From Tetracentron sinense (Eukaryota > Streptophyta > Magnoliopsida > Trochodendrales > Trochodendraceae): a DNA stretch of 64,000 nucleotides. Positions 1,674 to 42,796 of this stretch are shown here, one piece after another. The DNA lies in NCBI GenBank assembly GCA_015143295.1, contig CM026565.1, forward strand, positions 11,530,041-11,594,040, in the 5' to 3' direction. How positions within the stretch are numbered: the stretch's first letter is position 1; every line of letters starts with the position of its first letter. Below the pieces are notes generated by a model, which was not told the DNA's origin, made no database searches, and saw only the letters and a list, made by a program, of their open reading frames with translations. Position numbers and translations under genes: made by a program.

Positions 1674-2906
1674 TGTAAATCCCTAAATAGGTGTTGGCAA
1701 ATTCCGTGATCATTAGATAGGTCAGTTGAGTCGAGTCGTCGAGTCATGTTCAACTTGTCAGAAAAGAAGAGAAGAGCTAAAGCTTAAAGAAGATAGAAGA
1801 AAGAGAAGAAAAAGGTTCTACTCCGGATCTAGACAGGTAATGGACTTAGAGACCCCTACCTAGGTTTGATTTGACTTAGATAACCCTAAAAATACCTAGG
1901 AGGATAGATTTAAGCCTACCAAAGTTATTTGATCTTAGTTGAATCAAATAAAAATAAAATGAATTAATTTTGGCAAAAATTCTGTCTCAACCGATCGCTC
2001 GGTATTGCGACCGATCGATCGGTGGCCTACCGAGCGATCGGTGGCTATCGACTGGACTAAATATTTGTATGGGGAAATTTTCCAGAGAGATGTTTTAAGA
2101 CCGAGCGATCGGTCATTAGAACCGATCGATCCGTTGTGAACCGAGCGATCGGTTGTGAGCACCGATCGATCGGTCCCCGTAAAAAGAATTTTTCTTTTTC
2201 TGGATTCTTTTTTTAACCCTATATAAACAACTTTTGAGAGACCTAATTCGTGTCTTTGATAATTTTTGAAAGAGTAGAGGTCTGAGAAACTCTTCTAGGG
2301 TTTTTCTAATTGTTTTTATTAGATCTTTGTTGATCCCTCCTCTTTCTTAGATCCTAGAGAATGCAAGTATAGATTAAAATCTTTGATCTTGCATTGTGTG
2401 ATCTCAGATCTGTATGAGATCCCTCTAGGGTTTGAAATTTACTAAATTGATTCACAACCCTACACCTTGTGTGTGTGTCCGGTGTTTGATCCGGAGCCTT
2501 CGTGGAAGGAGATCGATCGTGTGTGATCGTGGATTTGAAGTTGCTTGAAAAGATTTGGTCGGTGTGGAACCGAAGCTGCTAAGGCGGAGATCGAACCTGC
2601 TGGTTCGTGGAAATCAAGAGTAAGAGTCTATACCTAGGAACGTCGTTTCTGTTTTGGTAAGGTCTTATCTTGTACTTGATATCTTTTCATAGTGAAGTTT
2701 ATTGCTGGACAAGGTCCCGTGGTTTTTTCCCGTTAAGGTTTTCCACGTAAAAATCTTCTGTGTTTGATTTGTGTGGATTGTCTGATTGAGTTAATCATTG
2801 ATTTTTAAACATATAAATTGAAAAATTAAAATTGGTTAGAAATTATTAGATAGACCTATTCACCCCCCCTCTAGGTCTTAGAGATCATTGATCTGGATAA
2901 ATTTCA
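1674..2906 (+). mobile_element. Element A 5' LTR
   Basis: Starts TGTAAATCCC and ends TTTCA, two bases before the primer-binding site. U3 carries seven GATCGATC-core palindromes (1990-2174) followed by a TATA box at 2222-2227. A splice-donor-like sequence (TTTTG|GTAAGG, near 2655) lies in the presumed transcribed leader. The copy at 11565-12797 is almost identical. Confidence 0.93.
1990..2227 (+). promoter_or_regulatory. Palindrome array and TATA box in LTR A
   Basis: Seven 14-bp palindromes of the type ACCGATCGATCGGT lie at 1990-2003, 2010-2023, 2029-2042, 2100-2113, 2121-2134, 2140-2153 and 2161-2174. Some have CGCTC or CGAGC in the centre. A 57-bp spacer with TATGGGGAAATTTTCCAG splits them three and four. 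TATAAA follows at 2222-2227, about 50 bp after the last copy. Known: maize Sireviruses carry palindrome arrays in U3. Inference: an enhancer or silencing target region. Confidence 0.85.
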
Positions 2907-2908
2907 AT

Positions 2909-2920
2909 TGGTATCAGAGC
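2909..2920 (+). other. Element A primer-binding site (initiator Met tRNA)
   Basis: TGGTATCAGAGC, two bases after the LTR end, is the standard plant initiator-Met tRNA site that primes minus-strand cDNA synthesis. Confidence 0.92.
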
Positions 2921-2967
2921 TAGTTCACTGATAAGGCTAATCCCTTAAGTGTGATCCTGTATTATCC

Positions 2968-5958
2968 GTGATCATGAGTACTCTAAGAGAAGGAGGATCC
3001 GTCTCTCGTCCCCCACTTTTTGATGGAAATAATTATGCATACTGGAAAGCTAGAATGAGAGCCTTTCTCAAATCAATTGACGAGAGAATTTGGATGTCTA
3101 TACAGAATGGGTGGACTACGCCCGTAAAAACTGTAGGTGATTTGACTGTCGTCAAATATTCTGATGAATGGACCAGAGAAGAGCTTGATTCAAGTGGATA
3201 GAACACTAAAGGTCTCAATGCTATCTTTACTGCAGTCACTGCTGAGGAATTCAGACGAATTTCTTCATGTGAAACAGCAAAGGAGGCTTGGGACATTCTT
3301 GAAATTACCCATGAGGGTACTACCACTGTTAAAATCTCTAAACTCCAAATGTTAACCACCAAATTTGAACATTTAAACATGGACGACAATGACACTTTTG
3401 ATGAATTCTATGCAAAACTTAGTGACATTGTCAACGCTAGTTTCAATTTAGGTGAGAAAATATCTGAGTCCAAAATAGTTAGAAAAGTCCTTAGATCTCT
3501 CCCAGAGAGATTTCAACCCAAAGTCACTGCAATCGAAGAGAGTAAAAATGTTGACTCTCTGAAGATTGAGGAATTGGTTGGATCACTCCAAACCTATGAA
3601 CTCAATCTACGTCCATCCAAGAAGAATAAATCTTTAGCCTTGAAAACCATCAAGGAAACTTTGGATGAGGATGACAGTGATGGAGAAATGAATGAGGAAG
3701 AAATGGCTCTTTTCGTTAAAAAATTTCGAAAATTTTTTAGAACGAAAAAGAGGTTTAATCCCAAACAGGGAGGAAAATCTTTTGATAAGTCAAAGTCTAA
3801 GCCCTGGGAAAACAAGAAAAATTCCAAAAGTGGCGACAAGAAATCCCAAGGTGTTCAATGTTATGAATGCCATGGCTTCGGACATATTTCACCTAACTGT
3901 CCTAACAAGAAGAAGAGTAAGGGCAAGGTGATGAATGCCTGTTGGGATGACAGTGATTCCGAGAATGAAGAATCGGACAGTTCCTCTTCAAGTGAAGATA
4001 CTGGAAATCATACGGCTTTCACTGTTTCCCTATCTGGGAGTCTTGAGACTACCTCTGCGGTTGATGAAAAGGATAGAAGTGATGAAAGTATTCATACTGA
4101 GTCAAGTGATGACTTACAGAAGAGTCAAACTGACTCTGAAAGTGATGAAGATTTGAAAACAACTTATGATAAGTTGTATGCTGAAAGTTTAAAACTGACT
4201 AAAACAAAAATCTCTTTGAGCAAAAAACTCAAATTCATTCAAAATGAAAGAGATATCTATAAACTAGTAGCAGAAGAGAAGAGTGCACTAGTTAGTCAGT
4301 TGGAAAATGAAAAAGAAGCATTTGTTATAAAAGTTCAATGTCTTTTGGAAGAGAATGTCTCATTGACTAATGTGGTCAGAAAATTAGAAGATGAAAGAGA
4401 CACTTCCATGAAAGAAATTGAAGAGTTAAAAACTCTGCAAATGGAGCTGGAAACTTTTAAAGTCTCTCTTGTTGATAAGGTGAAATTTCTTGAAAAAGAA
4501 CACCAAATTACCCTTAAAGACAAGACTGACTTGATTCAGAAGGTCTATACTCTTGAAAAAGAAGTGAGAATGTTTGGTAACACCAGCTGCCTAGATGAAT
4601 TAGTCAGAAAGTATGGATCAAATTCTAGTAGATCTGGGATAGGACATGTTGACACACCAACTGGTCCTTTAGCTGTTGGAACAATGGCTAGTGCAGTGTT
4701 TGAGCCAATACATTCTGAACCCAAAGAAAATTTACCTTCTACATCAAGTACTAAGGCTTATACAAATTTTGTAAAGCCTAGATATACAGCTCCTAGAGTG
4801 AATGCTTTAAGGAATCAAATTCCAGTTAGAAGAAATCTTCCTCCTCTACCAAGATTCATACCCACATGTCACTTTTGTGGTGTGAGAGGTCACATTCGAC
4901 CTAATTGTAATGCATTTAGGAGAGCTCCCCGAAATGGTTCATGGAACCAAAATCTGAGTCAAGGGACTCTTCAAAGGCAGATTCAGGTTCTAGCTGAAAA
5001 GTCTAGAATGTTGAGCGATGATGTTAACAGAATTGCTCAAATCTCTAGGACAAGGACTGGTCAATTTATTCCAAATGATTATTCAAGAGGAAATAATTTG
5101 ACTTATCAAAAAACTAGAACTGAACAAAACAGAAAAAGGTCAAGGAGGACAAAAAAGAAAAAGGTCTCTACTACACAGATTAATGATCAAAGATCTAAAC
5201 AAAGTTTAAAGACTGTGTATGTGAGAAAGGAAGACCTTAAGTGCTTTGTCATTCATACTGCCTTGAAAGCCCAAAACACAGAAATGTGGTACTTCGATAG
5301 TGGGTGTTCTCGGCATATGACAGGTAACAAGTCCTTATTTATTCAATTTGAGGACTGTCCTGATGGGACTGTTACTTTTGGTGATGGAAGCAAGTCTTTA
5401 GTCAAAGGAAAGGGTATCATCAATTCACCAGGCATACCTAAATTGAAAGATGCCTTGTTTGTTGAAGGACTGAAAGCTAATTTAATTAGCATAAGTCAAC
5501 TATGTGATGATAATCATGCTGTGCACTTTACCCAAAATAAATGCTTAGTCATTAATGGTAAAGGTAAGTGTGTTCTAGAAGGATTGAGAACCACTGACAA
5601 TTGCTACGGCCTAACTCCCAGTACTATTCCCTCAAATGTCTGTTATAAGACTAGAATTGAGGAGGTTGATTTGTGGCACCGAAGACTAGGTCACATGAAC
5701 TTCAAAGACCTATGTAAAATCTCTAAGCAAGAGCTTGTGAGAGGTGTTCCCAAACTAGGAAAGCCTTCTACTGCTGTGTGTGGGCCATGTCAAATTGGTA
5801 AACAAATTAGGACCCCACATAAGAAGACTTCAAGTATTGCTACTTCATATCCACTGGAATTAATTCATATGGACCTTATGGGTCCTACAAGAACTGAAAG
5901 TCTAGGTGGAAAGCGATACATCCTAGTCATGGTTGATGATTTCTCTAGAATGTCTTGA
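2968..5958 (+). pseudogene. gag-pol: Element A gag, protease and N-terminal integrase (broken frame)
   Basis: One reading frame runs from the ATG region at 2968 (start of gag, with the copia signature DGNNYAYWKARM) to a TGA at 5956-5958, interrupted by one TAG at 3199-3201. Gag has two CCHC knuckles (CYECHGFGHISPNC near 3858 and CHFCGVRGHIRPNC near 4868), separated by a long acidic and coiled-coil region (about 3930-4600), making gag unusually long as in Sireviruses. The protease has FDSGCSRHMTG near 5295. The integrase HHCC finger (LWHRRLGHMN ... CGPCQ) lies at about 5670-5800, and the first catalytic Asp is in ELIHMDLMGPT near 5870. Both stops can arise by single transitions. Function of an intact copy: capsid, processing and cDNA insertion. 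Confidence 0.88.
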
Positions 5959-6486
5959 GTGGCATTTATAAGAGAGAAATCCGATGCTTTTGACAATTTC
6001 AAAAGTATTTGCCTGAAAATTCAAAATGAGAAAAGATGCCCAATCACTCGAATTCGAAGTGATCATGGAAAGGAGTTTGAAAACTCTAAGTACAACGACT
6101 TTTGTGATGAGTCTGGTATCAAACATGAATTTTCTGCACCTATTACACCTCAGCAGAATGGTGTAGTAGAGAGGAAGAACAGGGTTCTCCAAGAGATGGC
6201 TAGAGTTATGCTTCATAGCAACAATCTAGCTTCTCATTTCTGGGCTGAGGCAGTTCACACTGCTTGCTATATAGTTAATAGAGTTTTTGTAAGACCTGGA
6301 ACAAGGAAAACCCCATATGAGATGTGGAATAACAAGAAACCTAGTGTCAAGTACTTTCGAGAATTCGGAAGTAAATGCTATATCCTTAGGATAGAGAGCA
6401 ACTGGGAAAATTTGAATCCCGGAGTGATGAAGGGATATTTCTTGGGTATTCCACCAACAGTAGAGCTTATCGAGTGTATAACTTGA
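5959..6486 (+). pseudogene. pol: Element A integrase core, frameshifted at its end
   Basis: This continues the integrase in the same frame after the TGA. It carries the second catalytic Asp in RSDHGKEFENSK and the Glu in QQNGVVERKNR, followed by the copia block LASHFWAEAV. Near 6444-6446 the frame slips by one base in a run of G (GGG, one fewer than the frame needs). The sequence therefore reads out of frame to a stop at 6486, while the true downstream sequence continues in the frame of the next entry. Confidence 0.85.
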
Positions 6487-8288
6487 GAACCTCTACAATT
6501 ATGGAGTCCATAAATGTAATTGTGGATGACTCTGGTGTTGAAAATGTGCAATGTGAGGATGATGAAAGTGCTGAAAATGAAGATGTTGAAATTATTTCAA
6601 CTTCACCTATTGATAAGCAAACATCTCCATTAAAACCTACACATCCTAGGGTCATGAGTCCTCACACCTCCACTGATATTATTGGTGATGTTGAAAGTGG
6701 AGTGAGAACGAGGAAACAAATTGAAAATGAAGTTAGCTACATTTGCTATACTTCATCTTTTGAACCCAAGAATGTAGCTGAAGCTCTTGCAGATGATAAT
6801 TGGATAAATGCAATGCAAGAAGAGTTACTTCAGTTTACTAGGAATGATGTTTGGTATTTAGTACCTAGGCCTAATAATACAAATGTGATAGGTACCAAAT
6901 GGATTTTCAAGAACAAATCTGATGAAAAAGGTACTATCATAAGAAATAAGGCTAGGTTAGTTGCACAAGGATATACCCAAATTGAAGGTATTGACTTCGA
7001 TGAAACTTTTGCTCCTGTAGCCAGGCTAGAATCAATAAGAATTCTTCTAGCTGTGGCTTGTAATATGAAATTCAAACTTTTTCAAATGGATGTTAAGAGT
7101 GCCTTTCTGAATGGCATTCTACATGAAGAAGTCTATGTGGAACAACCAAAAGGGTTTGAAGATCCACATCACCTTGATCAAGTTTATCGACTAAAAAGGG
7201 CCCTCTATGGTTTAAAACAAGCTCCAAGAGCTTGGTATGAGAGGCTGACTACTTATCTCTTGGAAAACGGATTTTCGAGAGGGGGAGTAGACAGAACCCT
7301 TTTCATAAAGAAAGTGAAAGGTGATATTGTCATCGCCCAGATATATGTTAATGACATAGTATTTGGTTCCACATTAGACTTACATGCTCATTCATTTGCT
7401 GAACAAATGAAAAATGAATTTGAAATGAGCATGGTTGGTGAGCTAAGTTTCTTCCTTGGTCTTCAGATCAAGCAATTGGATTCTGGGATCTCAGTATCTC
7501 AAATCAAATATGCAAAAAATTTAGTGAAGAAATTTGGAATGAGTTTTGCTAAGCATGCTAGGACTCCTATGAGTACTACTATAAAGCTTAGTAAAGATAC
7601 TTCAGGGAAGGATGTCGATCAGACTAATTATAGAAGCATGATTGGTAGTTTGCTCTACCTAACTGCTACTAGACCCGACATAGCCTTTAGTGTTGGAGCA
7701 TGTGCCCGTTATCAAGCAAATCCCAAAGAGTCTCACTTAGTTGCTGTCAAGCGTATCATTCGCTATGTGAGTGGAACTTTGTCCTTAGGCCTCTGGTATT
7801 CTTTCGATACAAATGTCATTGTTGTGGGGTATTCTGATGCTGATTGGGCTGGAAATACTGATGATAGGAAGAGCACCTCCGGCGGGTGTTTCTATATTGG
7901 AAACTGCTTAGTTGCTTGGCTTAGCAAAAAGCAGAATTCCATTTCCTTGTCTACAGCCGAGGCTGAGTATATTGCAGCTGGTAGTTGTTGCACCCAACTT
8001 CTGTGGATGAAACAGATGTTGAAGGATTATGGAATTGATCAAAGCACTATGATTGTGTATTGTGATAACACAAGTGCAATCAATATCTCCAAAAATCCTG
8101 TGCAACACTCTCGCACAAAGCATATAGACATTAGGCATCACTTCATCCGTGATCTTGTTGAGCAAAAAGTTGTGTCTATTGAGTATGTCCAAACAGAGAA
8201 TCAATATGCGGACATTCTCACAAAACCTTTAGATTCCCTTAGGTTTGAACTCCTTAGGAAATCCATCGGTTTGTGTGGAGTTGAGTAA
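6474..8288 (+). pseudogene. pol: Element A reverse transcriptase and RNase H (active-site mutation)
   Basis: About 600 uninterrupted codons with the copia RT order: the [22 protein letters not shown] region (about 6950-7020), [23 protein letters not shown], then RNase H with GYSDADWAG and [10 protein letters not shown], ending before 8288. The catalytic YVDD box reads YVND: codon 7350-7352 is AAT where Asp (GAT or GAC) is expected. That Asp binds catalytic metal, so this copy should lack polymerase activity. The first codons belong to the integrase C-terminus, so 6474 is where the frame becomes visible after the frameshift and is not a true start. Confidence 0.9.
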
Positions 8289-9472: not shown

Positions 9473-9530
9473 ACCGATCGCTCGGTGCTAAAGACCGATC
9501 GATCGGTCTTTCGTGAACAGGGTTATAAAA
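9473..9530 (+). promoter_or_regulatory. Candidate internal promoter upstream of the env-like ORF in A
   Basis: Two palindromes of the LTR type lie at 9473-9486 (ACCGATCGCTCGGT) and 9494-9507. The second extends to a perfect 20-bp palindrome at 9491-9510. TATAAAA follows at 9524-9530, then a pyrimidine-rich leader with a degenerate third copy near 9574-9589 and a donor-like AAAAG|GTAAGAG near 9656. The order (palindromes, TATA, leader, donor) mirrors the LTR promoter. Inference: the env-like ORF may have its own promoter. Confidence 0.5.
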
Positions 9531-9665
9531 CCCTCATTTCTATTTTTTTTGTTCACTTGTTCTCCGATCTCCAGAGCGATCTCTCGGTTTCCTCTCCTCC
9601 AAATCTTTCCTACGAACATTCCATTCTACTCTAAAGGTTTCCCAAGCATCTAAAAGGTAAGAGTT

Positions 9666-11018
9666 GTGCATTTTCTTTGCTTTAGATTGATTTTCTCATC
9701 TAGGGCATCATTTCTTGCATTTTCTTCAATGGCTTTCGTTTTGTCGTTAATCCTTCTTGCCTATCTCATTTCTGGCATCCCCAAACGTCGGAGGTTGGTC
9801 CTCAACAACCAAGAGGATCCTCCTCAAGATGAGGAAAACCTAGAGCCCTTTACTTTCACTCCAATAGGGCATGGTATTTCCATTGGGGACAGGCCAATTC
9901 GTAGAATGATTGATTCTACAATTGAGAATCGTCAAAAATCTCTGGCTGATAAAACTCGGAAAAATAAAGGTAAAGCTTCATCTTCCCAGTCCAGTAAGTT
10001 ATCCCAGTTTATCAGTCCTACTGCTGCTCAACTCTATAGTGAGTATTTTAGCAAGAAAGGTGTTATGGTTGAAAGGGACATACATATTTCTGATTTTGGT
10101 GATTATTATCTTCCTACTCTCATTTCAGATCGTCAATGGGAAGGTATACTTACCTTATCCGGTCCTGCTTCTGTCCAGTTAGTTAGAGAATTTTACTCTA
10201 ATTTTTCTGAAATCAACCAGAAAAAATGGTCATTCAAATCTCGAGCATTAGAACAATCTGTTGTCATAAATGCTGATTTGGTTTCTAAATTCCTTGGGTG
10301 TCCTCGAGTTCCAAATGCATATTATCCTTATATTTATAAAACTGATGAGGATAAAGACTCCATGGAACATGTTGTTACCTTTCTAAGTGGTACTCCTACG
10401 TTTTGGGTTGGGTCTCTTATTGAAGTGGCGAAACTCACTAAGGATGCTAGACTAGTAAACCTAGTTATGAGTGCAAATATCCATCCAAAGGTTCATACTG
10501 CGGACCTTAGGGAAGATAGAGCTAGATTTTTGTTTAGTCTTCTACGTGGGCGTGATATTGATCTTGCTGCTCACATCATTGACTTGATGATCCAAGCCCA
10601 TCAAACTAATACAGCAGTTGGAGCCCTACCATTTGGTTCACTCATCACTAAACTTCTTGGTTCTCAAGGGGTTATCGCTCCTCCTGGTGTTCCTACTCGA
10701 GTTCCTAAGGGTCCAATCACCAAAAAGACCCTAGCTCAGAGTTTTTCACATGCCTCAGTTCGAGATACAGAGGAGGGAGCAGAAGTTGGTGCTGGGTCAT
10801 CTCGTCCTCCTCCGACCACTATGGACGATCTTGGGAGGATGATGAGAGAGATGCAGATGGATCTCCGGACTCATATTTCTTCATACGAGGAGTTTACTAC
10901 AGAGGTTCGTGGTAGACTTGGATCTCTCGATGCAGCAGTGCTTGGAGTACAGAGAGATGTTCGAGATTTTCGAGCTTACTATGAGTCACAGCTCACTTCT
11001 GATGATGAGCAAGAGTGA
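9666..11018 (+). CDS. Env-like third ORF of element A (putative plant transposon protein family)
   Basis: Open for 450 codons, the only intact long ORF in A. Residues about 15-45 form a hydrophobic segment ending in a basic KRRR cluster, which could be a signal anchor. A second ATG (codon 22) starts inside it, and if the nearby GTAAGAG is a real splice donor this part may be untranslated. The centre (about residues 140-350), with FYSNFSEINQKKWSFKSR, INADLVSKFLG and LPFGSLITKLL, resembles the plant transposon protein domain of Athila ORF2 (PF20167, from memory). The C-terminus (about 385-450) is acidic with likely helices. Function is unknown; env-like describes position only. It follows the candidate promoter at 9473-9530. 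Confidence 0.75.
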   Translation: MHFLCFRLIFSSRASFLAFSSMAFVLSLILLAYLISGIPKRRRLVLNNQEDPPQDEENLEPFTFTPIGHGISIGDRPIRRMIDSTIENRQKSLADKTRKNKGKASSSQSSKLSQFISPTAAQLYSEYFSKKGVMVERDIHISDFGDYYLPTLISDRQWEGILTLSGPASVQLVREFYSNFSEINQKKWSFKSRALEQSVVINADLVSKFLGCPRVPNAYYPYIYKTDEDKDSMEHVVTFLSGTPTFWVGSLIEVAKLTKDARLVNLVMSANIHPKVHTADLREDRARFLFSLLRGRDIDLAAHIIDLMIQAHQTNTAVGALPFGSLITKLLGSQGVIAPPGVPTRVPKGPITKKTLAQSFSHASVRDTEEGAEVGAGSSRPPPTTMDDLGRMMREMQMDLRTHISSYEEFTTEVRGRLGSLDAAVLGVQRDVRDFRAYYESQLTSDDEQE

Positions 11019-11564: not shown

Positions 11565-12797
11565 TGTAAATCCCTAAATAGGTGTTGGCAAATTCCGTGA
11601 TCATTAGATAGGTCAGTTGAGTCGAGTCGTCGAGTCATGTTCAACTTGTCAGAAAAGAAGAGAAGAGCTAAAGCTTAAAGAAGATAGAAGAAAGAGAAGA
11701 AAAAGGTTCTACTCCGGATCTAGACAGGTAATGGACTTAGAGACCCCTACCTAGGTTTGATTTGACTTAGATAACCCTAAAAATACCTAGGAGGATAGAT
11801 TTAAGCCTACCAAAGTTATTTGATCTTAGTTGAATCAAATAAAAATAAAATGAATTAATTTTGGCAAAAATTCTGTCTCAACCGATCGCTCGGTATTGCG
11901 ACCGATCGATCGGTGGCCTACCGAGCGATCGGTGGCTATCGACTGGACTAAATATTTGTATGGGGAAATTTTCCAGAGAGATGTTTTAAGACCGAGCGAT
12001 CGGTCATTAGAACCGATCGATCCGTTGTGAACCGAGCGATCGGTTGTGAGCACCGATCGATCGGTCCCCGTAAAAAGAATTTTTCTTTTTCTGGATTCTT
12101 TTTTTAACCCTATATAAACAACTTTTGAGAGACCTAATTCGTGTCTTTGATAATTTTTGAAAGAGTAGAGGTCTGAGAAACTCTTCTAGGGTTTTTCTAA
12201 TTGTTTTTATTAGATCTTTGTTGATCCCTCCTCTTTCTTAGATCCTAGAGAATGCAAGTATAGATTAAAATCTTTGATCTTGCATTGTGTGATCTCAGAT
12301 CTGTATGAGATCCCTCTAGGGTTTGAAATTTACTAAATTGATTCACAACCCTACACCTTGTGTGTGTGTCCGGTGTTTGATCCGGAGCCTTCGTGGAAGG
12401 AGATCGATCGTGTGTGATCGTGGATTTGAAGTTGCTTGAAAAGATTTGGTCGGTGTGGAACCGAAGCTACTAAGGCGGAGATCGAACCTGCTGGTTCGTG
12501 GAAATCAAGAGTAAGAGTCTATACCTAGGAACGTCGTTTCTGTTTTGGTAAGGTCTTATCTTGTACTTGATATCTTTTCATAGTGAAGTTTATTGCTGGA
12601 CAAGGTCCCGTGGTTTTTTCCCGTTAGGGTTTTCCACGTAAAAATCTTCTGTGTTTGATTTGTGTGGATTGTCTGATTGAGTTAATCATTGATTTTTAAA
12701 CATATTAATTGAAAAATTAAAATTGGTTAGAAATTATTAGATAGACCTATTCACCCCCCCTCTAGGTCTTAGAGATCATTGATCTGGATAAATTTCA
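11565..12797 (+). mobile_element. Element A 3' LTR
   Basis: Same length as the 5' LTR with a constant offset of 9,891. The palindrome array recurs at 11881-12065 and TATAAA at about 12113. It ends in CA at 12797 and is followed by the target duplication ATTAT (12798-12802). Confidence 0.93.
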
Positions 12798-18247: not shown

Positions 18248-18469
18248 TGTAGCACCCCGGACTTTTTCATCCTTAATGAATAGCACCTTCATAGCTAATT
18301 GGCCGTTTTCATAGTTTTCGTAGTCTAATTAATAAATAAGGGAGAAATTGGAAATTCCGAAACGTCAGAAATGTTCGTTTTCGAAAGACGGATCCAACGC
18401 AAGTTGAATCGTCGAAATCCGACGAGCGAGTAAAAAGATATGGTCAAAACAGTCCAGACATAACAGAGC

Positions 18470-18718
18470 ACCGATCGCTCGGTCGTTACCTGCGATCGAT
18501 CGGTCCACTACCGATCGCTCGATGGCTGTCGCACGGTTAACTTTTTTGTATGGGGAAAAATTCCAGAGAGTGTGTTTTTGACCGATCTCTCGGTCATAAC
18601 ACCGATCGACCGGTAAGCCACCGATCGCTCGGTCCATACCACCGATCGATCGGTCATACGCAATTTTTCTTCATTAAGGGTGTTTAAGACTTTAAACACA
18701 ACCCCTTGCCTATAAATA
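18470..18718 (+). promoter_or_regulatory. Palindrome array and TATA box in LTR D
   Basis: Seven copies of the ACCGATCGATCGGT type lie at 18470-18483, 18491-18504, 18510-18523, 18581-18594, 18601-18614, 18620-18633 and 18641-18654. They are split three and four by a spacer with TATGGGGAAAAATTCCAG, the same layout as in copia A. TATAAATA is at 18711-18718. The 3' LTR repeats this at 25488-25672. Confidence 0.85.
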
Positions 18719-19631
18719 GGCTGAGTTCGTGCCTTAGGGTTTCAGAAACCCTCTGTGCCCTATCTTAGGAGATTTTGAGAGAGAGAAGAAGGAGAGGAAC
18801 TACTTGTTGATCAAGCTTGTGGAAGATCAAGGTTCTTCCACTTCCCTTGGTGATTTCCAACCAAGAACTCACTGTTCTTGCTTGTTCCAGCCATTGGGAG
18901 TCAAATCCATTGATTTCTCTAAGGTAGATACACTCTACTACAATCTTGCAATCCTACTAGTTACTAAGTATGATTCTTCTTATCTATGCCCTATCTATGT
19001 GTATTGATTTTATGTATGAAAAAGGTGTGATTATATACTTGGATGAAGGTTACTATTATGATGCACTCTAAGTGTTTGATGAAATACCTCTAAGGGCTTC
19101 TATGTTTAAATACGATGATTTCTCTTATTAAGTGCATATGCTCGCATGTCTCGCATGAACCGATGGTTTCCATGGATTTCTCAAAGTACAAATAAAGGTT
19201 TTTCACGAAAAGACGAATAATGAATGATTCTAAGTAACTCTATGATTTCTCTAAGATCGTTTCACAAGCTCTAAGGATCATACCGTGCTCACAAGGAAAC
19301 TCTATGATAATGTTCTAAGATCGTCTCACAAGCTCCACGGATCACAATGAAATGCTCTAAGATCTCTAAGGTTATGCTCTATGGAAATGCTCTACGGTAT
19401 TGCTCTATGCTCTATGTCTCTACGGATCATAATGACTCTAAGTAACTCCATGAACTCACAAGAACTCATAAGGCTATGATTATCGATTGACTCACACGGT
19501 TACAGTTTTGGGTTCGAATATTATCTCACATATGTTTTCACGGTTTCCATGCTTTAAGGATTGTTCGGATTTCATTCTCCATGTCTTGTATGCTCCATGC
19601 CTAACCGCTTTATTGTTCTTAGTTTGTATAC

Positions 19632-19652
19632 ACTGAGTATTCCATGCTCAGT
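19632..19652 (+). promoter_or_regulatory. Conserved LTR hairpin, loop TATTCCATG
   Basis: Stem ACTGAG/CTCAGT around loop TATTCCATG, in the presumed transcribed part of LTR D. The same loop with other, matching stems occurs in C (17080-17100), I (37724-37744) and E (44351-44371). The function is unknown. Confidence 0.55.
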
Positions 19653-20115
19653 CGATATTGTTATGATCGGCAGGTGCTCGGGTTCCATTCGATTTGTGTG
19701 GCGACGAACCTTGGGTCGAGGAAGAGTACCGTGACCCGGAGCCTTCCATGGATCACTATCATGACGATGGTGCTCTAGATAGGAGTCGTGACTTCGATTT
19801 CTGTTGATCGACCGACTTAGAACTTGTGTCATTTTGTTATGTGAGTGTGGGGTTTGTCCACTCCACTTTTGGGTTTCTCACACATGTATACTTGTTGGTT
19901 CTTACTTGAGCCAAGCTATAGGAGTATTCATTTTGCTTCCGCTATGTTTAGTATTTTATTTTCCGCTGTGCATTGTATTTCGTTTCCGCTATGTATATGC
20001 AGGTACTCTGACAGGTTTCCACGTGTGCCTTACGTATCATACTGGAGGTATGATACGGCGGTCACGAGTCAAAGTATCCTTAACTCCTAGGGGGTATTTT
20101 GGGTCGCGACAGACT

Positions 20116-20127: not shown

Positions 20128-20488
20128 TAGTTATGTCTAACGACAGACTTAGTTAGGTCACTCAGGCTTGGCCTAAGCGGAAGTAATTCCTATAAGTTGA
20201 ACTTAGAACTCAGAAGGACTCAGTTGTCTTAGGCTTGTTACCACGACATAACCGGTATCAAGTGAATCTTTAGGTTAGTGTAGGATCCTAGAAAGGATAG
20301 ATGCCCAATGCAAGTGTCTTAGCTACGCTAGGGTACTCTAAGTTGTGATGGTATTCTTACGTGTATACCTTGATGTATACTAAATGCGGTGTTAGCATTT
20401 CATGATTATTGAATTGCTATATGATATGTGAGGTTTGGTATCCAAGTTAGACTCATGTTTTGCCAAATTGATCTCAGGATTTGATATC

Positions 20489-21704
20489 ATGAGACGTGTC
20501 AATCGGGGTCGAGGTTACCATACTCGGAGGGCTGAGAGTGAAGTTCCAAGAGAAGAGGAACCGTTGTATTTCACGAATGCTATGGACTCCATAGCCGAGA
20601 CTTTGGCATTGTTGGCAGCAAGGCCTATGCCTACCCCACCGTCCACGCCTGTGCCTACACCGGTGCATCACACCGCGGGGCTCGAAGCTTTTAGGAGACT
20701 GCGGCCTCCTACATTCTATGGCACTCTGGACCCCATGGTGGCCGAGTCTTGGATTATGCAGCTGGAGAAGACCTTCCGGGCTCTCCGTTGTACCGATGAG
20801 CAAAGGGTAGAATGGGCTTCCTTCGTGATGGAGGGTGAAGCCGAACACTGGTGGAGAGCTGCCCAAAGGCAGAGAGATGTTGCTAAAGCAGGTGTGCCCT
20901 GGACTTGGGCGGAGTTCTTAGAGACTTTCAGGGAACAGTACTTTCCCAGGTTTATTCGGGAACAAAAGGCGAGAGAGTTTATGCTTTTGGAGCAAGGGTC
21001 GATGAGCGTAGCCGAGTATGAGGCTAAGTTCACCGAGTTGTCTAGGTTTTCTCCGCACTTGGTGGCTACTGAAGACCTACAGGTCAGGAAGTTTGAGATG
21101 GGCTTGAAGGCTTTCATCCGAGATCGGGTGTCCATTCTCCAGGTAGAGTCTTGGAGAGAGATAGTAGGGAAGGCAAAGATCGCCGAAAAGAATGCGGAAG
21201 ACTTCGTGAGAAGAAGAGACAGTGGCTTCGGGAAGAACATGTCTCGGGGTCAGACGAGTAGTTCTTCAGAGAAGAGGACTAGGACTGCACCGTACCAGTT
21301 CTCCCAGCCGATTTCGGCTCAGAGACCTTCTTTTGCGCCTCAGGCACCGCGTCCTACAGCATCGCAAGCTACGAGGGTTATGCCTCCGGCTTCCTCCGCA
21401 TCGCAGACATTTGAGGAGTGCGCCGCATGTGGTCGTCGGCATAAGACTGGAGATTGCCGAAGAATGTCAGGTGGATGCTTCCATTGTGGCGAGATGGGCC
21501 ATATGATTCGAGATTGCCCGCGCAAGCAGTCACAGTCTGGATCACAGGGAGTTCGGCCTCCAGGCAGGCAGAATTCACTTCAGGGGTCTTCATCTCAGGC
21601 CTCTAGATCCTTGCAGCCTACCCAGCAGCCTCGTCAGGCAAACCAGGGCAGAGTCTTTGCCATGACTGATAGAGACGCACAGGCATCTGATGATGTTGTG
21701 CAAG
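20489..21704 (+). CDS. gag: Element D gag (capsid-nucleocapsid), intact
   Basis: The start at 20489 (MRRVNRGRG) matches E's start and follows an acceptor-like CTCAG at 20473-20477. Residues about 60-250 form the retrotransposon gag domain (EAFRRLRPPTFYG, GEAEHWWRAAQ, LEQGSMSVAEYEAKF). Then comes a low-complexity Ser/Gln/Pro-rich stretch, a C-x2-C-x3-H-x4-C finger (CAACGRRHKTGDC, from about residue 311) and a classic CCHC knuckle (CFHCGEMGHMIRDC, from about 330). Unspliced, the frame runs on to a stop at 21748. A donor-like CAAG|GTACGC at 21704/21705 would join it in frame to pol. Role: virus-like particle shell and RNA packaging in the cytoplasm. Confidence 0.9.
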
Positions 21705-21842
21705 GTACGCGCGAACTAGTCTTTGTTGAAGTTCTAATGTTGCCATGATATGTTCGTATCTATATATATCCTATGTGGTGTTTTGCGATGTTTGTATCTA
21801 TATGTACAGTTGTGTTATAACTGGGATGATTCAAATTCTCAG
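21705..21842 (+). other. Candidate gag-pol intron in D (138 bp)
   Basis: Starts GTACGC after CAAG and ends in TTCTCAG, with an in-frame stop inside. Removing it joins gag to protease in one frame. E has a matching GTACGC...CACACAG segment at 46391-46524. No splicing data are available here. Confidence 0.55.
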
Positions 21843-24800
21843 GTTCGTTGCTCGTAAATGAATGTTTGGCAAGAGTGTTAATAGACACAGGATCCACTCA
21901 CTCGTTCGTTTCACCAAGCTTTGCCAAAGGCTTTACGTCCGAGCCAAGCAAGCTACCTAGGGAGTTGTCCATTTCAACTCCATTGGGAAAATCTATTGAG
22001 ACAGATAAAGTGTATCCGGATAGTGTTGTACAAGTCATGCAGCACGAGTTGCCAGTCGACTTGATCCTTCTGGGAATTCAGGATTGGGATTTCGATGTCA
22101 TCCTAGGTATGGATTGGCTCTCAACTCACCATGGACACGTGGCGTGTTTCGAGAAGGTGGTGCATTTTAAACCCGTGGGGTTAAAGCCGTTTCATTTCAG
22201 GGGACTTCAGAGAAGAGACATTGCCCGCTTTGCAACTCTTAGTCTCGAGGGTGTAGAAGTGCGAGACTCCACACCCATTCCAGTGGTATGTGAGTATATG
22301 GATGTTTTTCCGGAAACCTTGCCGGGATTGCCTCCCGATCGTGCAATCGAGTTTGCGATTGAGCTAGCTCCAGGCACAGTTCCGATTTCGAGAGCTCCGT
22401 ATAGGATGGCCCCTATTGAGCTTAAGGAGTTAAAAGAGCAGTTAGAAGAATTGCAAGGCCTTGGTTTTATCCGGCCAAGTGTTTCACCTTGGGGAGCTCC
22501 GGTTCTCTTCGTGAAGAAGAAGGATGGATCAATGCGTATGTGTATTGATTACAGGTAATTGAACAAGGTCACGATCAAGAATCGTTATCCATTGCCTCGG
22601 ATAGACGACTTGTTTGACCAATTAAAGGGTGCGCAGTTTTTCTCCAAGATTGACCTTCGATCTGGTTATCATCAGTTGAAGATCAAGAAAGAGGACATCC
22701 CGAAGACAGCATTCCGAACTCGATACGGTCATTACGAGTTTTTGGTCATGTCTTTTGGACTGACTAACGCACCGGCAGCATTCATGGATTTGATGAATCG
22801 GGTGTTCAGATCATCTCTCGATCAATGTGTGATCGTGTTCGTAGATGATATCCTTGTGTATTCACAGTCACAGGAGGATCACACGAGAGATCTCTGTCTG
22901 GTGTTGCAGACACTTCGAGAGCATAGTCTGTATGCTAAGTTGAGCAAGTGTGAGTTCTGGCTGAACAAGGTGTCTTTTCTTGGACACGTGGTATCTGCTG
23001 AAGGTATTTCAGTTGATCCTGCAAAGATTGAAGCGGTGATGAATTGGGAAAGACCGAAGAGTGTCACCGAGATCCGTAGTTTCCTTGGGTTGGCAGGATA
23101 TTACAGAAGGTTTGTGGAAGGATTTTCAAGTTTAGCAGCTCCACTTACCTATCTCACACGGAAGAACACGAGGTTCACTTGGAGTGATAAGTGCGAGGCT
23201 AGTTTCTTGGAGTTGAGAAAGAAGCTTACTTCGGCTCCTGTTCTTACAGTTCCATCTGGGAGCGGTGGTTTCGAAGTCTATAGTGATGCTTCACTAGTGG
23301 GACTTGGATGTGTTTTAATGCAGCATAAAAAGGTGGTCGCCTATGCTTCTCGTCAGCTGAAGGAGCATGAGCAAAACTACCCCACACATGACTTAGAGCT
23401 CGCTGCAGTCATCTTTGCACTGAAACTTTGGCGTCACTACCTCTACGGAGAAGAGTTCGTGGTGTTCACAGACCACAAGAGCTTGAAGTATCTTTTCCTC
23501 CAGAAGGAGTTGAATATGAGGCAGCGTCGTTGGATGGAGTTCATGAAGGACTACGACTGTTCCATCCAGTACCACCCGGGTAAGGCTAACGTGGTAGCCG
23601 ATGCTCTTAGCAGAAAACCTTACGGAGTTATGGCTCAATTGAGAGTGCAAGAGTGGAAGTTATTATATGATATGTGTCATTTGGACACTACTCTCAGGCA
23701 TGTCACCTATGGGCCGATAATGTCCAACGTGGTGGTTAGGCCACAGATCCTGAGCCAGATCAAGGAGTTACAGAATTCCGATGTTGAGTTGCTTGCTTAC
23801 CGAGACAAGTCGGTGAGTAACGGCAATCAGGAGTTCGCTTTAAATGATGATGGTGCTATCACATTTAAAGGCAGGTTGTGTGTCCCCGCCGACACAGTTT
23901 TGAGGGATGAAATTTTGAATGAAGCTCACCGATCAAAGTACACGGTACATCCGGGAGGTACTAAGATGTACCAGAATCTCAAGAAGCACTACTGGTGGCG
24001 AAACATGAAGAGGGAAGTCGCTGAGTACGTCGCCAGATGTTTGATTTGCCAGCAGGTAAAAGCCGAACATCAAAGGCCGGCAGGTCTTTTGCAGTCCCTT
24101 CCTATTCCGGAGTGGAAATGGGAGAACATCTCGATGGATTTCATTGTGGGTTTGCCGCGAACGGCGAAGGGCTCCGATGCTATTTGGGTGATAGTGGACA
24201 GGTTGACTAAGTCTGCACATTTTATTCCGTACCGAACTACTTTCAATGCAAATCAGTTGGTAGCCCTATATGTTAAGGAGGTGGTTCGACTGCACGGTGT
24301 GCCAGTTTCTATCGTGTCTGATCGAGATCCTCGGTTTACTTCCAGGTTTTGGAAAACTTTCCAGGATGCTATGGGTTCTCGTTTAGAATTCAGTACCGCC
24401 TTCCATCCTCAGACCGATGGACAAACGGAGAGGGTGAATCAAGTAGTGGAGGATATGCTCCGAGCTTGTATGCTGGATTTTCAGGGTAGTTGGGAGGAAC
24501 AGTTGCCGTTGGTTGAGTTTGCCTACAACAATAGCTATCAGGCGAGCATCCAGATGGCACCTTTTGAAGCTCTGTATGGTCGGAGTTGTCGATCACCGCT
24601 ATACTGGGATGAAGTTGGTGAGAGGAAAATTCTTGGTCCTGAGTTGATAGAGCGGACCGCAGAAAGGGTCAAAATTATCCGGGAGCGATTGAAAAGTGCT
24701 CAGGATAGGCAGAAGAGCTATGCGGATATACGCCGCAGAGATTTAGAGTTCCGAGTTGGGGATCGGGTCTTTGTGAAGATTTCGCCGAGTCGGGGAATCA

Positions 24801-25174
24801 TGCGATTCGGGAAGAAGGGAAAGCTCAGTCCTAGGTACGTGGGACCATTTGAGATCGTCACAAGGGTTGGTGAGGTTGCTTACAGGGTAGCACTACCGCC
24901 TCACATGGCAGCGGTCCATAATGTATTTCACGTCTCTATGCTTAGAAAATACATTTCGGATCCGTCTCACGTCATCGCTCTTGATCCTGTTGAGATTCGA
25001 GAGGATCTTACGTTGGTTGAACAACCAGTTCAGATTCTAGATCGTCGAGATCAAGTGTTGCGAACCAAGACTATCCCTTTAGTCCTAGTGAAGTGGCAGC
25101 ATCATTCCAAGGAAGAGGCTACATGGGAGCGAGAAGCCGAAGTACGAGAAAAGTACCCCCATTTATTTGTTTAA
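21843..25174 (+). pseudogene. pol: Element D pol (protease, RT, RNase H, integrase, chromodomain) with one stop
   Basis: About 1,110 codons, broken only by TAA at 22556-22558, where E has CAG (Gln). Protease: [11 protein letters not shown] at about 21881. RT: MCIDYR just before the stop, and FVDDILVYS with both catalytic Asp at 22844-22849. RNase [12 protein letters not shown] near 23280. Integrase: an HHCC finger ([12 protein letters not shown] ... CLICQQ, about 23925-24055), then D in [10 protein letters not shown] in SDRDPRF and E in GQTERVN. The C-terminus ([10 protein letters not shown] ... [15 protein letters not shown]) is the chromodomain-like tail that marks Tekay/Del chromoviruses and is thought to target heterochromatin. 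Apart from the stop it looks complete. Confidence 0.93.
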
Positions 25175-25265: not shown

Positions 25266-27129
25266 TGTAGCACCCCGGACTTTTTCATCCTTAATGAATA
25301 GCACCTTCATAGCTAATTGGCCGTTTTCATAGTTTTCGTAGTCTAATTAATAAATAAGGGAGAAATTGGAAATTCCGAAATGTCAGAAATGTTCGTTTTC
25401 GAAAGACGGATCCAACGCAAGTTGAATCGTCGAAATCCGACGAGCGAGTAAAAAGATATGGTCAAAACAGTCCAGACATAACAGAGCACCGATCGCTCGG
25501 TCGTTACCTGCGATCGATCGGTCCACTACCGATCGCTCGATGGCTGTCGCACGGTTAACTTTTTTGTATGGGGAAAAATTCCAGAGAGTGTGTTTTTGAC
25601 CGATCTCTCGGTCATAACACCGATCGACCGGTAAGCCACCGATCGCTCGGTCCATACCACCGATCGATCGGTCATACGCAATTTTTCTTCATTAAGGGTG
25701 TTTAAGACTTTAAACACAACCCCTTGCCTATAAATAGGCTGAGTTCGTGCCTTAGGGTTTCAGAAACCCTCTGTGCCCTATCTTAGGAGATTTTGAGAGA
25801 GAGAAGAAGGAGAGGAACTACTTGTTGATCAAGCTTGTGGAAGATCAAGGTTCTTCCACTTCCCTTGGTGATTTCCAACCAAGAACTCACTGTTCTTGCT
25901 TGTTCCAGCCATTGGGAGTCAAATCCATTGATTTCTCTAAGGTAGATACACTCTACTACAATCTTGCAATCCTACTAGTTACTAAGTATGATTCTTCTTA
26001 TCTATGCCCTATCTATGTGTATTGATTTTATGTATGAAAAAGGTGTGATTATATACTTGGATGAAGGTTACTATTATGATGCACTCTAAGTGTTTGATGA
26101 AATACCTCTAAGGGCTTCTATGTTTAAATACGATGATTTCTCTTATTAAGTGCATATGCTCGCATGTCTCGCATGAACCGATGGTTTCCATGGATTTCTC
26201 AAAGTACAAATAAAGGTTTTTCACGAAAAGACGAATAATGAATGATTCTAAGTAACTCTATGATTTCTCTAAGATCGTTTCACAAGCTCTAAGGATCATA
26301 CCGTGCTCACAAGGAAACTCTATGATAATGTTCTAAGATCGTCTCACAAGCTCCACGGATCACAATGAAATGCTCTAAGATCTCTAAGGTTATGCTCTAT
26401 GGAAATGCTCTACGGTATTGCTCTATGCTCTATGTCTCTACGGATCATAATGACTCTAAGTAACTCCATGAACTCACAAGAACTCATAAGGCTATGATTA
26501 TCGATTGACTCACACGGTTACAGTTTTGGGTTCGAATATTATCTCACATATGTTTTCACGGTTTCCATGCTTTAAGGATTGTTCGGATTTCATTCTCCAT
26601 GTCTTGTATGCTCCATGCCTAACCGCTTTATTGTTCTTAGTTTGTATACACTGAGTATTCCATGCTCAGTCGATATTGTTATGATCGGCAGGTGCTCGGG
26701 TTCCATTCGATTTGTGTGGCGACGAACCTTGGGTCGAGGAAGAGTACCGTGACCCGGAGCCTTCCATGGATCACTATCATGACGATGGTGCTCTAGATAG
26801 GAGTCGTGACTTCGATTTCTGTTGATCGACCGACTTAGAACTTGTGTCATTTTGTTATGTGAGTGTGGGGTTTGTCCACTCCACTTTTGGGTTTCTCACA
26901 CATGTATACTTGTTGGTTCTTACTTGAGCCAAGCTATAGGAGTATTCATTTTGCTTCCGCTATGTTTAGTATTTTATTTTCCGCTGTGCATTGTATTTCG
27001 TTTCCGCTATGTATATGCAGGTACTCTGACAGGTTTCCACGTGTGCCTTATGTATCATACTGGAGGTATGATACGGCGGTCACGAGTCAAAGTATCCTTA
27101 ACTCCTAGGGGGTATTTTGGGTCGCGACA
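25266..27129 (+). mobile_element. Element D 3' LTR
   Basis: Copy of 18248-20111 at offset 7,018, with the palindrome array at 25488-25672, the hairpin at 26650-26670 and CA at 27128-27129. GTAGC (27130-27134) is the target duplication, after which LTR C resumes. Confidence 0.94.
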
Positions 27130-27879
27130 GTAGCCAAACCCTTGATTTCCCCCTTCAAGTTGAAACTCTAGGTTAGAAAACCTTCTCCTCCTCTCACTCT
27201 CTCTCAAAATGCAAGTTTGAGGGTTTATGAAACCCTCAACCCATGAACTTAGGTTTATATAGAAAAGGGGATAGTCAAAGACCATCATACCCTTAATGAT
27301 CTACTTGAAAAGACCAACCCAAGCAAATTCATAGAGGAGCGGTTGATCGGTCCAAAAGACCCTCTGTGGAAAATAACCCCATACATAATTAGTGCGATAG
27401 CGGTCGACCGGTGGTTAGAGGGGTCGACCGGTAGGTGAGCAGTCAATCGGTCATCTTAGCGGTCGAGCGGTAGGCTACCGGTCGATCAATCCTTGGAGTG
27501 GTCGACCGGTTGGTCTATGGTTTGCCTATTTTGCTGATTTTCCTCATTTTTTGTACTTCAATGTTTTGGCCATAACCTTTGACTCGTTTGTCGGATTTTG
27601 GCGATTCAACTTGCGTTGGATTTGCCTTTCGAATAGAAACATTCCTGGCATTTTAGAAATTCTAATTTCTACTTTATTTATAGACTCAATTGTCTCCAAA
27701 GTTGACTGATCCGCAAATGGAGTTCAACAAACCGGATCTTTAATATATCTGACTTAAGAATCCCACTTCTTAACACTTAAGTTCTTTAAAACTTCTCATT
27801 TCATAGAAATTGGAGATTACAATGGCATAAAGCCTTGGCACAAGCTCCAACACATGGACAAAAGTTCTGGGGCTCTACA
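27130..27879 (-). mobile_element. Element C 5' LTR, segment 3 (U3 end)
   Basis: Final piece of LTR C, ending on the plus strand in GGGGCTCTACA, i.e. a minus-strand start TGTAGAGCCCC. On the minus strand it shows U3 features in order: a block CGCAAGTTGAATCG (27568-27622), a palindrome array (27338-27510) and a TATA-like TATATAAA near 27253-27265. Seven palindromes of a diverged type (core GGTCGACCGG) are arranged as six, then a spacer with the GTATGGGG remnant, then one. Confidence 0.85.
27338..27510 (-). promoter_or_regulatory. Palindrome array in LTR C (diverged, GTCGAC core)
   Basis: Copies lie at 27338-27351, 27399-27412, 27419-27432, 27438-27451, 27458-27471, 27477-27490 and 27497-27510, e.g. 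AGCGGTCGACCGGT. The spacer 27352-27398 keeps CCCCATAC, the complement of GTATGGGG. The spacing and place in the LTR match A and D while the core has shifted to GTCGAC. Confidence 0.7.
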
Positions 27880-37956: not shown

Positions 37957-38127
37957 GCTCGACTGGGTATGCCTAGATGCCGTTCATATACCATTGCAAC
38001 TAGTATCCCCTATGCTGAACTGGGTATGCCTAGATGCCGTTCATAGACCGTCACAACTAGTATCCCCTATGCTGAACTGGGTATGCCTAGATGCCGTTCA
38101 TAGACCGTCGTAATTAGTATCCCCTAT
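37957..38127 (-). repeat. 57-bp tandem repeat in LTR I, three copies
   Basis: Units at 37957-38013, 38014-38070 and 38071-38127, e.g. CTGGGTATGCCTAGATGCCG followed by TTCATAGACCGTC and CTAGTATCCCCTATG. It lies in the part of the LTR where E has its 66-78 bp repeats and C its 46-bp repeats, but the sequences are unrelated. Confidence 0.85.
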
Positions 38128-39044: not shown

Positions 39045-39209
39045 ACCGAGCGATCAGTGGTCAATACCGAGCGATCGGTCAAAAACATGCTCTCTGGAAT
39101 TTTTTCCCATACAAAAAAGTGCACCATTCGATATCTACCAATCGATCGGTTGTGGACCGATTGATCGCTAATATGGACCGAGCGATTGGTTGTGGACCGA
39201 TCGATCCCT
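39045..39209 (-). promoter_or_regulatory. Palindrome array in LTR I
   Basis: Six recognisable copies: 39045-39058, 39066-39079, then a spacer with TTTTTTCCCATAC, then 39137-39150, 39156-39169, 39177-39190 and 39196-39209, with a decayed seventh near 39211-39221. Changes such as CGATTGATC are C to T type. In the copy at 55705-55880 the seventh has GATCGG. Confidence 0.8.
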
Positions 39210-40983: not shown

Positions 40984-41129
40984 CTAAAGAGTTAAGCCAA
41001 TATTTGGCTTTGTCTTTCAAAGAAAATGGAAAGAGATGCAATCTAAGGGCATATCAGAAAATCCCTGCGACTTAAAAGTTGTACAAATCTCGTGAAATTC
41101 ATGAAGATGTTTGTAGGGATCTTCATTAT
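40984..41129 (-). pseudogene. gag: Element H gag, segment beyond insertion G
   Basis: The minus strand carries NNEDPYKHLHEFHEICTTFK and then an in-frame stop near 41020, the N-proximal Athila gag domain. It is continuous with 36458 once G is removed. ATTAT at 41125-41129 is the base block just before LTR J. Confidence 0.8.
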
Positions 41130-42011
41130 TGTAGAACCCTGAAACTCTTTGTATATGCCTTGGAATATGTGTCAAGACATGAGGCATTTGTAATCTCTAA
41201 TTCCATTAAATGAAAATTTGGAAACTTTGAGAAGTTTGCAAGAATGCTATAATTAATTAAATAAATTATTTAATACTGTCTATAAGCCCTAAAAAGGTCC
41301 TAGTCATGTTTAGAAAAGGTTGGAATAGAAGAGGAATGAGTCCAAGTAGTAGGAATGGGTGAAAAATGGACTTAGTGTCAAAACCTGTAGAGAACCAATC
41401 GCTCGGTCACGAGAGCAATCGATCGGTCCATAACCGATCACTCGGTCCATATTAGTGATCGATCGGTCCACAACCAATCCATCGGTAGCTATCCGCTGGT
41501 GCACTTTTTTATATGGGGAAAATTTCCAGGGAGCATGTTTTTGACCGATCGCCCGGTCATGACACCGGTCGCTCGGTAGGCAACCGATCGCTCGGTATTA
41601 ACCACCGATTGATCGGTCTATCGCATTTTGCAGAATTTCATTAAGGGCTTTTTCGTCTTTGGGGCTTTATACCCTTACCTTTTAAGGCTTGCCCGAGCCT
41701 TGAGGGTCTCATTCACCACACTTAGAGTATTTGAGAGAAAGGAAGAGAGGAGAAGAGGGGACTCTAACCTAGGGTTTTCACTTGAGAAAGAATCAAGGGT
41801 TTGAGGACCCTATATCATCACAAGCTCGGATTTCATCAAGTACAAGATTCAAGCTTGTGATGAGCACGTTCTCCAAAGCTAGGGCAGGGTTCGTCCTCGG
41901 TAAGAACAAGGGTTTTCTTCCTCTATTCAAGGTCGGTACCTTATGCTACCCTCCTAGTTCACATTCTTCTTTCTTTTCTTCTTTTTTTTATTTTCCCCTA
42001 TTATCTAAGTA
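41130..42011 (+). mobile_element. Element J: chromovirus LTR, U3 to leader part
   Basis: Starts TGTAGAACCCTG at 41130, similar to the start of LTR I. It holds nine palindromes (41394-41617), a weak TATA-like TTTATAC near 41667 and the donor-like AAG|GTCGGT at 41931/41932. It is cut by E at 42012; AAGTA at 42007-42011 would be E's target duplication. The remainder of J would lie after E's 3' LTR, which is lost in the gap. Confidence 0.8.
41394..41617 (+). promoter_or_regulatory. Palindrome array in LTR J (nine copies)
   Basis: Five copies (41394, 41414, 41433, 41454 and 41473, 14 bp each), a spacer with ATATGGGGAAAATTTCCAG, then four (41544-41557, 41564-41577, 41583-41596, 41604-41617). This is the largest array of the ACC...GGT type in the window. 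The second copy of this locus has it at about 58019-58242. Confidence 0.82.
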
Positions 42012-42546
42012 TGTAGAACCCCGGATCTTGATGGCCATGTACGACGAATGATATCATATACTAAAGCATGTAAGAATGTATTTATGGTGTATGGGTGTTT
42101 GGAATAAAATAGGTAAGAGTATAGAATACTCTTGAGTATTGACAAGGGTTATGCCTTGGCATACCCTCGACTCTAAATAGCCCTAACGTTCACACCGCTT
42201 GTCGGAATCAAGAGATTCTTGGATTTTTGGAAAGGTAATTGAAACCTCTTTGGGGTTCATGTTGATCACTTGTCTTGGTTTTGAGTTGGTGTTAGGTCAA
42301 AAGACCGATTTCTGAAGTCGGGTCGATTTAAAATCTGGATTGACGAAACCCAATTTCGGATCAGTCAGGTTTAGGGGCAAAATGGTCCAAGAAAAAGGAC
42401 GAATTGGAAGTTATGAAAAACATAAAAGTTGTTCTCCTTCGAAATATGAATCCAACGCAAGTTGAATCGTTAATATCGGACAAGCGAGTCAAACGTTATG
42501 GCCGAGATACGAAAATGCAAAAATGCTGAAGCTTTCTGCAAAAGTT

Positions 42547-42796
42547 GCGATCGCTCGTAGGGACCCTACGAACGATCGTAGCGGAGTTACGAACGATCGT
42601 AGAGTTGCTACGATCGATCGTAAAGCCCTAGATATGCTGGAAACTCTCGGTTGAAACTACGATTGATCGTAGGAAGCTACGATCGATCGTAGAAGGCTAC
42701 GATCAATCGTAAATCGCTACGAACGATCGTAGATACGCGATTTTACTTTCTTGGATGCGATTTTTTAGGGGTTTTTCACCCCTTACAGTATAAATA
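42547..42796 (+). promoter_or_regulatory. Palindrome array (CTAC...GTAG type) and TATA box in LTR E
   Basis: Copies lie at 42547-42560, 42566-42581, 42587-42602 and 42608-42623, then a spacer, then 42657-42672, 42677-42692, 42697-42712 and 42717-42732. The best copy is a perfect 16-bp palindrome CTACGATCGATCGTAG (42677-42692). The GATCGATC core equals that of A and D but the outer bases differ, and the spacer has TGCTGGAAACTCTCG in place of the TATGGGG block. TATAAATA is at 42789-42796. Confidence 0.82.

Follow-up and report, generated by a model that had tools for sequence, protein, structure and literature searches.

Retrotransposons of the window

The window (the whole stretch of DNA analysed, 64,000 nt) is a nest of plant LTR retrotransposons. 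The features of a copia element (A) and a gypsy element (D) are listed below.

1674..2906, plus strand: copia A 5' LTR (TG...CA, 1233 bp; 3 mismatches to the 3' LTR)
3202..8288, plus strand: copia A gag/pol in three open frames (Retrotran_gag_2, RVT_2)
9654..11018, plus strand: copia A env-position open frame (Pfam Transposase_32, PF20167; first in-frame ATG at 9729)
11565..12797, plus strand: copia A 3' LTR (TSD ATTAT flanks both sides of the element)
18248..20111, plus strand: chromovirus D 5' LTR (TSD GTAGC)
20432..25174, plus strand: chromovirus D gag, protease, RT, RNase H, integrase and chromodomain (PF00385), in three frames
25266..27129, plus strand: chromovirus D 3' LTR (2 mismatches in 1864 between the LTR pair)

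The frames of copia A match Retrotran_gag_2 (4.8e-22) and RVT_2 (7.9e-72). All 7990 of 7990 scored candidates match its RT and, among the matches listed, none exceeds 74% identity and all with an organism name are from flowering plants, so that the DNA probably comes from a flowering plant. A protein search with the env-position frame returned no homologues among 7995 scored candidates. Sequence of the host element around copia A recurs nearby in inverted form with 96-97% identity (929-1673, 12797-13674 and 14098-15712).

Element D has the gypsy coding order with a C-terminal PF00385 chromodomain at residues 825-869 of 871 (25.9 bits; cut-off, 25.1), and a protein search with its gag gave 56 matches (best, 61% identity across 67% of the query). 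Element E starts at 42012 and has a 3' LTR from 49936; its pol is 74% identical to that of D (3461 columns), and its PF00385 match lies under the cut-off of 25.1 (22.8 bits; E-value, 8.6e-5). Compared with known chromoviruses (Ty3/gypsy elements with a chromodomain), D is alike in coding order and domains and E by relatedness, and on these marks D is classed as a chromovirus and E as its relative. Three further LTRs, C, I and J, are placed as chromovirus-type by LTR similarity (C-I, 82.6% over 321; D-C and D-I, about 80% over about 120; I-J, 77% over 418). Gypsy RT pieces are present on the minus strand at 32-34 kb, with no tie made to LTRs C, I or J. No purine tract directly precedes these three LTRs, and hence each may be a 5' LTR or a solo LTR. 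On the left of D, the flanking sequence (17836-18244) resembles the downstream part of LTR I, with 27131-27879 on the other side, and D may have inserted into LTR C. Two blocks (36712-47363 and 53347-64000), 95-98% identical, flank a gap of 100 N (52335-52434) and may represent two haplotypes in tandem instead of a true duplication, so that the duplicate arrays of I, J and E described below are not independent of their counterparts.

Palindromic arrays in six LTR families

Arrays of palindromic units, consisting of 14-bp dyads (16-bp in E), were identified in 12 copies distributed among six LTR families (A, D, C, I, J and E).

1990..2174, plus strand: A 5' LTR array (3 units, 57-nt gap, 4 units)
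2043..2099, plus strand: 57-nt gap within the A array (non-palindromic; homologous gap sequence in D, I, J and C)
9473..9507, plus strand: pair of additional units in the A linker (TATAAA at 9524, 16 nt on)
9575..9588, plus strand: weaker third unit in the A linker (2 mismatches)
11881..12065, plus strand: A 3' LTR array
18470..18654, plus strand: D 5' LTR array
25488..25672, plus strand: D 3' LTR array
27338..27510, minus strand: LTR C array (motif nearer ACCGGTCGACCGCT)
39045..39209, minus strand: LTR I array (6 units)
41394..41617, plus strand: LTR J array (9 units; no TATA match downstream)
42545..42732, plus strand: E 5' LTR array (8 units of the CTACGATCGATCGTAG type)
50469..50616, plus strand: E 3' LTR array (6 units; 40 bp, two units, gone)
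55705..55869, minus strand: I duplicate array
58019..58242, plus strand: J duplicate array
59170..59357, plus strand: E duplicate LTR array (8 units)

A first-pass annotation of the window had listed arrays at seven of these places, all of which were recovered at the same coordinates (the E array starting at 42545 if the 16-bp unit is used), and five copies were added (D 3' LTR, E 3' LTR, and the duplicates of E, I and J). Its range of seven to nine palindromes per array is correct for A, D and C (7 each), E (8) and J (9), but not for I, which has 6. The core motif that it had proposed, alone or as a close variant, was borne out: ACCGAKCGMTCGGT with up to 2 mismatches has 61 matches in the window compared to 0.19 expected (shuffle mean; maximum of 3 in 100 shuffles). 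Of the 61 matches, 58 are inside the LTR arrays of A, D, I and J, and the other 3, the only ones in the window outside such arrays, are in the A linker (9473, 9494 and 9575). No match falls in C or E, whose arrays are built on shifted motifs. The exact string GATCGATC occurs 24 times in the window, 20 of them inside arrays. LTRs B and G, reported to be without arrays and taken here to lie at 929-1673 and 12803-16559, contain no unit match. Neither the unit pattern nor the gap pattern was detected in viral contigs (0 for each).

The units are arranged in a narrow phase: in each of the six families they follow one another at steps of 19, 20 or 21 bp, except for one wide step per array (71 bp in A, D, I and J; 61 in C; 49 in E). 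The differences between the wide steps are near one and two helical turns, though with three values only this was not counted as evidence. Length (185 bp) and layout are the same in the arrays of A and D.

Sirevirus-like features of copia A

Based on the structural marks given in the available text of PMC2829016, copia A appears to be Sirevirus-like. At the 3' LTR, a PPT (AGGGGGAG) at 11555 is followed by AT and then TG at 11565, corresponding to the Sirevirus attachment site, and copies of the PPT lie in the linker at 9423, 11239 and 11555 (published mean for Sirevirus linkers, four; PMC2829016), with one more in pol (7280). The 5' LTR junction fits the Sirevirus form CA/ATTGG + TATCAGAGC, being ATTGGTATCAGAGC at 2907, the sole occurrence in the window. 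A C-rich integrase signal (CACCCCCCCTCTAGG; 2861-2875), compared with the published text description alone, is located 31 nt from the LTR end.

Palindrome arrays in Sirevirus LTRs, which the first-pass annotation had given as known, are indeed on record: RM boxes are described as CpG-rich sets of several palindromic units, situated in the upper LTR half a short distance before the TATA box and present again upstream of the env-like gene, and are reported from 13 of 21 Sireviruses of both monocots and eudicots (PMC2829016). The array of A is alike in its place in the LTR (7 palindromes per LTR, from 316 nt in), in its position before a TATA-like match, and in the extra linker units before the env-position frame. 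A CGG-CCG core signature is present in 12 of the 13 published RMs (exception, Tnd-1; PMC2829016) and absent from the A unit, ACCGATCGATCGGT. The Vitis RM, CGGTCGACCG, is present in one of the seven units of the LTR C array.

Homology of gaps and flanks

The A gap aligned to the gaps of D (score, 45), J (45), I (46) and C (36) with scores that none of 2000 shuffles of the A gap equalled, while elsewhere in the window the highest score among 12128 block-by-strand comparisons was 27. Gap length is 57 nt in A, D, I and J and 47 nt in C. Between A and these four families gap identity is 0.65-0.70, a range comparable to C-D (0.66) and C-I (0.62); D-I (0.82) and I-J (0.86) are more alike. The E gap has no detectable similarity to that of A (940 of 2000 shuffles as good). 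The core pattern of the gap has exactly five occurrences in the window, two each in A and D and one in C. As a rough control only, it matched 4 stretches, taken as chance, in a prokaryote collection of 257 billion bases by description.

The flanks of the arrays give a different distribution. Over 300 bp on each side, A has no clear homology to any of the five other families (33 to 270 of 300 shuffles as good). The upstream flank of D matches C, I and E (0 of 300 shuffles each), with no match to J (25 of 300 as good), and its downstream flank matches C, I and J (0 of 300 each), with no significant similarity to E (47 of 300). E is tied to the chromoviruses by its upstream flank and by pol. From these flank and gap comparisons, the array is in the chromoviruses mostly by descent, and A carries the same block in a foreign LTR. 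The first-pass annotation had considered the array unusual for occurring in several chromovirus families; it is present in them, but largely through ordinary descent, since C, I and E share upstream LTR sequence with D, and J shares downstream sequence.

A common origin of the A, D, I, J and C arrays is favoured by the homologous gap and by the near-identical unit number and spacing in A and D; convergence among these five was rejected on gap homology. By gap identity, A lies at much the same distance from each of C, D, I and J, so that the transfer looks old. An attempt to read the direction from A being nested among the chromoviruses was rejected on the same equal distances, which are identities and not a tree. 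The RM arrays of 13 Sireviruses out of 21 (PMC2829016), together with the linker copies of A, which resemble those of env-bearing Sireviruses as described there, suggest a Sirevirus source, yet the gap of A shows nearly the same distance to C as to the other three families.

Turnover of the units

Relative to its 5' counterpart, the E 3' LTR array has lost exactly 40 bp (two units) with the phase kept. The order of symmetric (s) and asymmetric (a) units is asaasas in both A and D, an agreement expected 1 in 35 times by chance given four of seven (own arithmetic), and J and I have other orders. Units 3, 4 and 6 of A (2029, 2100 and 2140, compared to 18510, 18581 and 18620 in D) fit D better when reversed (13, 13 and 14 of 14 letters vs 11, 11 and 12). 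It seems that single A units were flipped in place or that mirrored changes arose twice. Inversion of a whole segment was rejected as the source of the flipped units, as the short spacer that follows unit 4 seems to be in direct orientation (4 of 6 letters), and from the two sequences compared single-unit flips seem likelier. The five short spacers of A and D agree in length to within 1 nt while only 9 of 29 letters are the same, vs 39 of 57 in the gap; retention of length with free letters is as expected for spaced sites.

In E the outer bases are altered on both half-sites. Left and right halves agree at 0.85 within E, compared to 0.40-0.56 for E left halves against the right halves of other families and 0.51-0.68 for the converse. 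Asymmetry is consistent among the C units, 6 of 7 having G>C at position 13, and no half-site coevolution was found in C, where the left halves fit the right halves of A (0.75) better than C's own (0.65). Within-unit compensation was not detected in any of the six arrays: halves exchanged at random between units gave symmetry as good as that of the real units. This pattern fits a single bound motif present in many copies better than hairpins that were each under selection. By LTR mismatch, A (3 of 1233) and D (2 of 1864) are the youngest elements; departures from the unit consensus number 5 in A and 9 in D with no CpG transitions, and 10, 16, 17 and 11 in I, J, C and E, with 4, 6, 5 and 2 CpG transitions, respectively.

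Promoter position and proposed function

A TATA-like match follows the array in five of the six families, at 45 nt in A, 56 in D, 63 in I, 76 in C and 56 in E (by motif match). The first-pass annotation had placed every array before a presumed TATA box, which agrees with these five and not with J, where no TATA-like match follows. Within A, two palindromic units with TATAAA 16 nt on (9473-9529) lie upstream of the env-position frame and are a possible internal promoter.

We consider it probable (roughly 0.6) that the arrays represent a single homologous promoter module of U3, which crossed between Sirevirus (Ty1/copia) and chromovirus (Ty3/gypsy) LTRs and most likely functions as a multi-site cis-regulatory element. 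Each 14-16 bp dyad would be bound by a dimeric transcription factor of the host, and units about two helical turns apart would present the same face of the DNA, permitting cooperative binding. The array may then recruit transcription at the LTR and, in A, at the internal promoter. A cooperative host factor of this kind is inferred from the TATA-like position, the narrow phase with free spacers, the turnover of whole units and the mini-array of the A linker. The exchange would have occurred long ago, in either direction, through template switching between co-packaged RNAs or through ectopic conversion.

A less likely alternative, which carries the most weight among the rivals and has real support, holds that the array is common by descent while its main role or consequence is structural, with hairpins at the 3' end of the genomic RNA giving rise to small RNAs and silencing. 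Folding of the array RNA is far stronger than that of shuffled sequence (A, z -7.45; D, z -4.33), as is folding of the first three units of A (-39.4 kcal/mol, z -7.32), and the A gap alone folds no better than shuffles (67 of 200 as good). CpG observed/expected is 1.27-2.29 in arrays vs 0.34-0.87 in the other LTR sequence measured, and the palindrome clusters of maize Sirevirus LTRs are described as hotspots of small-RNA mapping in the available parts of PMC5311732 and PMC10760457. However, hairpins need neither the 19-21 bp phase, nor whole-unit loss, nor a place before TATA-like boxes, and they are at odds with the absence of within-unit compensation in all six arrays, though pairing between units is possible. 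The promoter and hairpin/small-RNA roles may both be true.

Independent capture of the same host promoter segment by both superfamilies would account for the array boundaries being the edge of A-D homology, but it is improbable given that no unit (up to 2 mismatches) occurs in the window outside the LTR arrays and the A linker. Equally doubtful is a one-off origin of A, its LTR array having been converted from a chromovirus copy: a single A insertion is seen in the window, making a chimeric single element possible, and its flanks are unrelated to those of the chromoviruses, whereas the gap identity of 0.65-0.70 indicates that none of D, I, J or C is a recent donor, and the linker of A carries the same units too. 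Strong convergence, which the first-pass annotation had offered beside module exchange and in which unrelated LTRs are independently drawn to the same host-factor site, is highly improbable where exchange is favoured by the homologous gap (A to D, I, J and C) and the identical 185-bp layout of A and D, despite the many Sireviruses with arrays of differing palindromes (PMC2829016, Table 3) and the differing unit and undetectable gap similarity of E, for which alone convergence is possible.

Relation to known systems

Palindromic arrays in U3 are not known to be characteristic of chromoviruses. RM boxes were reported to be Sirevirus-specific, being absent from the classic copia elements compared (PMC2829016), whereas here a homologous array sits in chromovirus LTRs too. 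A further difference is the phased 185-bp layout with a conserved gap, which is not among the features described in the available text of PMC2829016. The LTR palindromes of maize Sireviruses are described as cis-regulatory and small-RNA regions, and one recurs in Helitrons, a cross-superfamily case (PMC5311732 and PMC10760457, available parts). Modular transfers between retroelements have been argued under mosaic LTR evolution, including a possible recombination that gave retroviruses their Metaviridae-derived LTRs (PMC3601003); as far as the available text of that source extends, it concerns deep ancestry and whole LTRs or pol domains, in contrast to the short promoter array of plant copia and gypsy elements described here. 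A literature search on titles and the starts of abstracts, with subscription papers mostly outside it, found no report of an array common to copia and chromovirus elements, and a search with the letters of the unit had as its sole match a paper that, from its available part, concerns a bacterial TetR regulator. Within that coverage, arrays in Sireviruses are known and the homologous array in chromovirus LTRs appears to be new.

If the homologous chromovirus array is true, regulatory modules, and not coding domains alone, pass between two LTR superfamilies, and unrelated families in one host may share an activator or be silenced jointly. The arrays suggest that control blocks can be swapped between retrotransposon superfamilies, and they define a specific unit, a dyad of 14-16 bp in 20-bp phase, with which to screen for binding and to test which families are activated together. 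More tentatively, and as a conjecture, plant LTR promoters could be transferable cassettes that cross the copia/gypsy divide, with the phased array moving as a block and changing by whole units, by inversion of single units and, in E, by family-wide shifts of both half-sites, following a host factor that both superfamilies exploit.

Tandem repeats were observed in or near LTRs of two of the array-bearing families. Downstream of the promoter, the E LTR contains 68-bp tandem repeats (43562-44169, 51431-52013 and 60187-60792) in which the arrangement of copies differs, and a tandem repeat of 57-58 bp is located near LTR I (37954-38135) and its duplicate (54623-54805).
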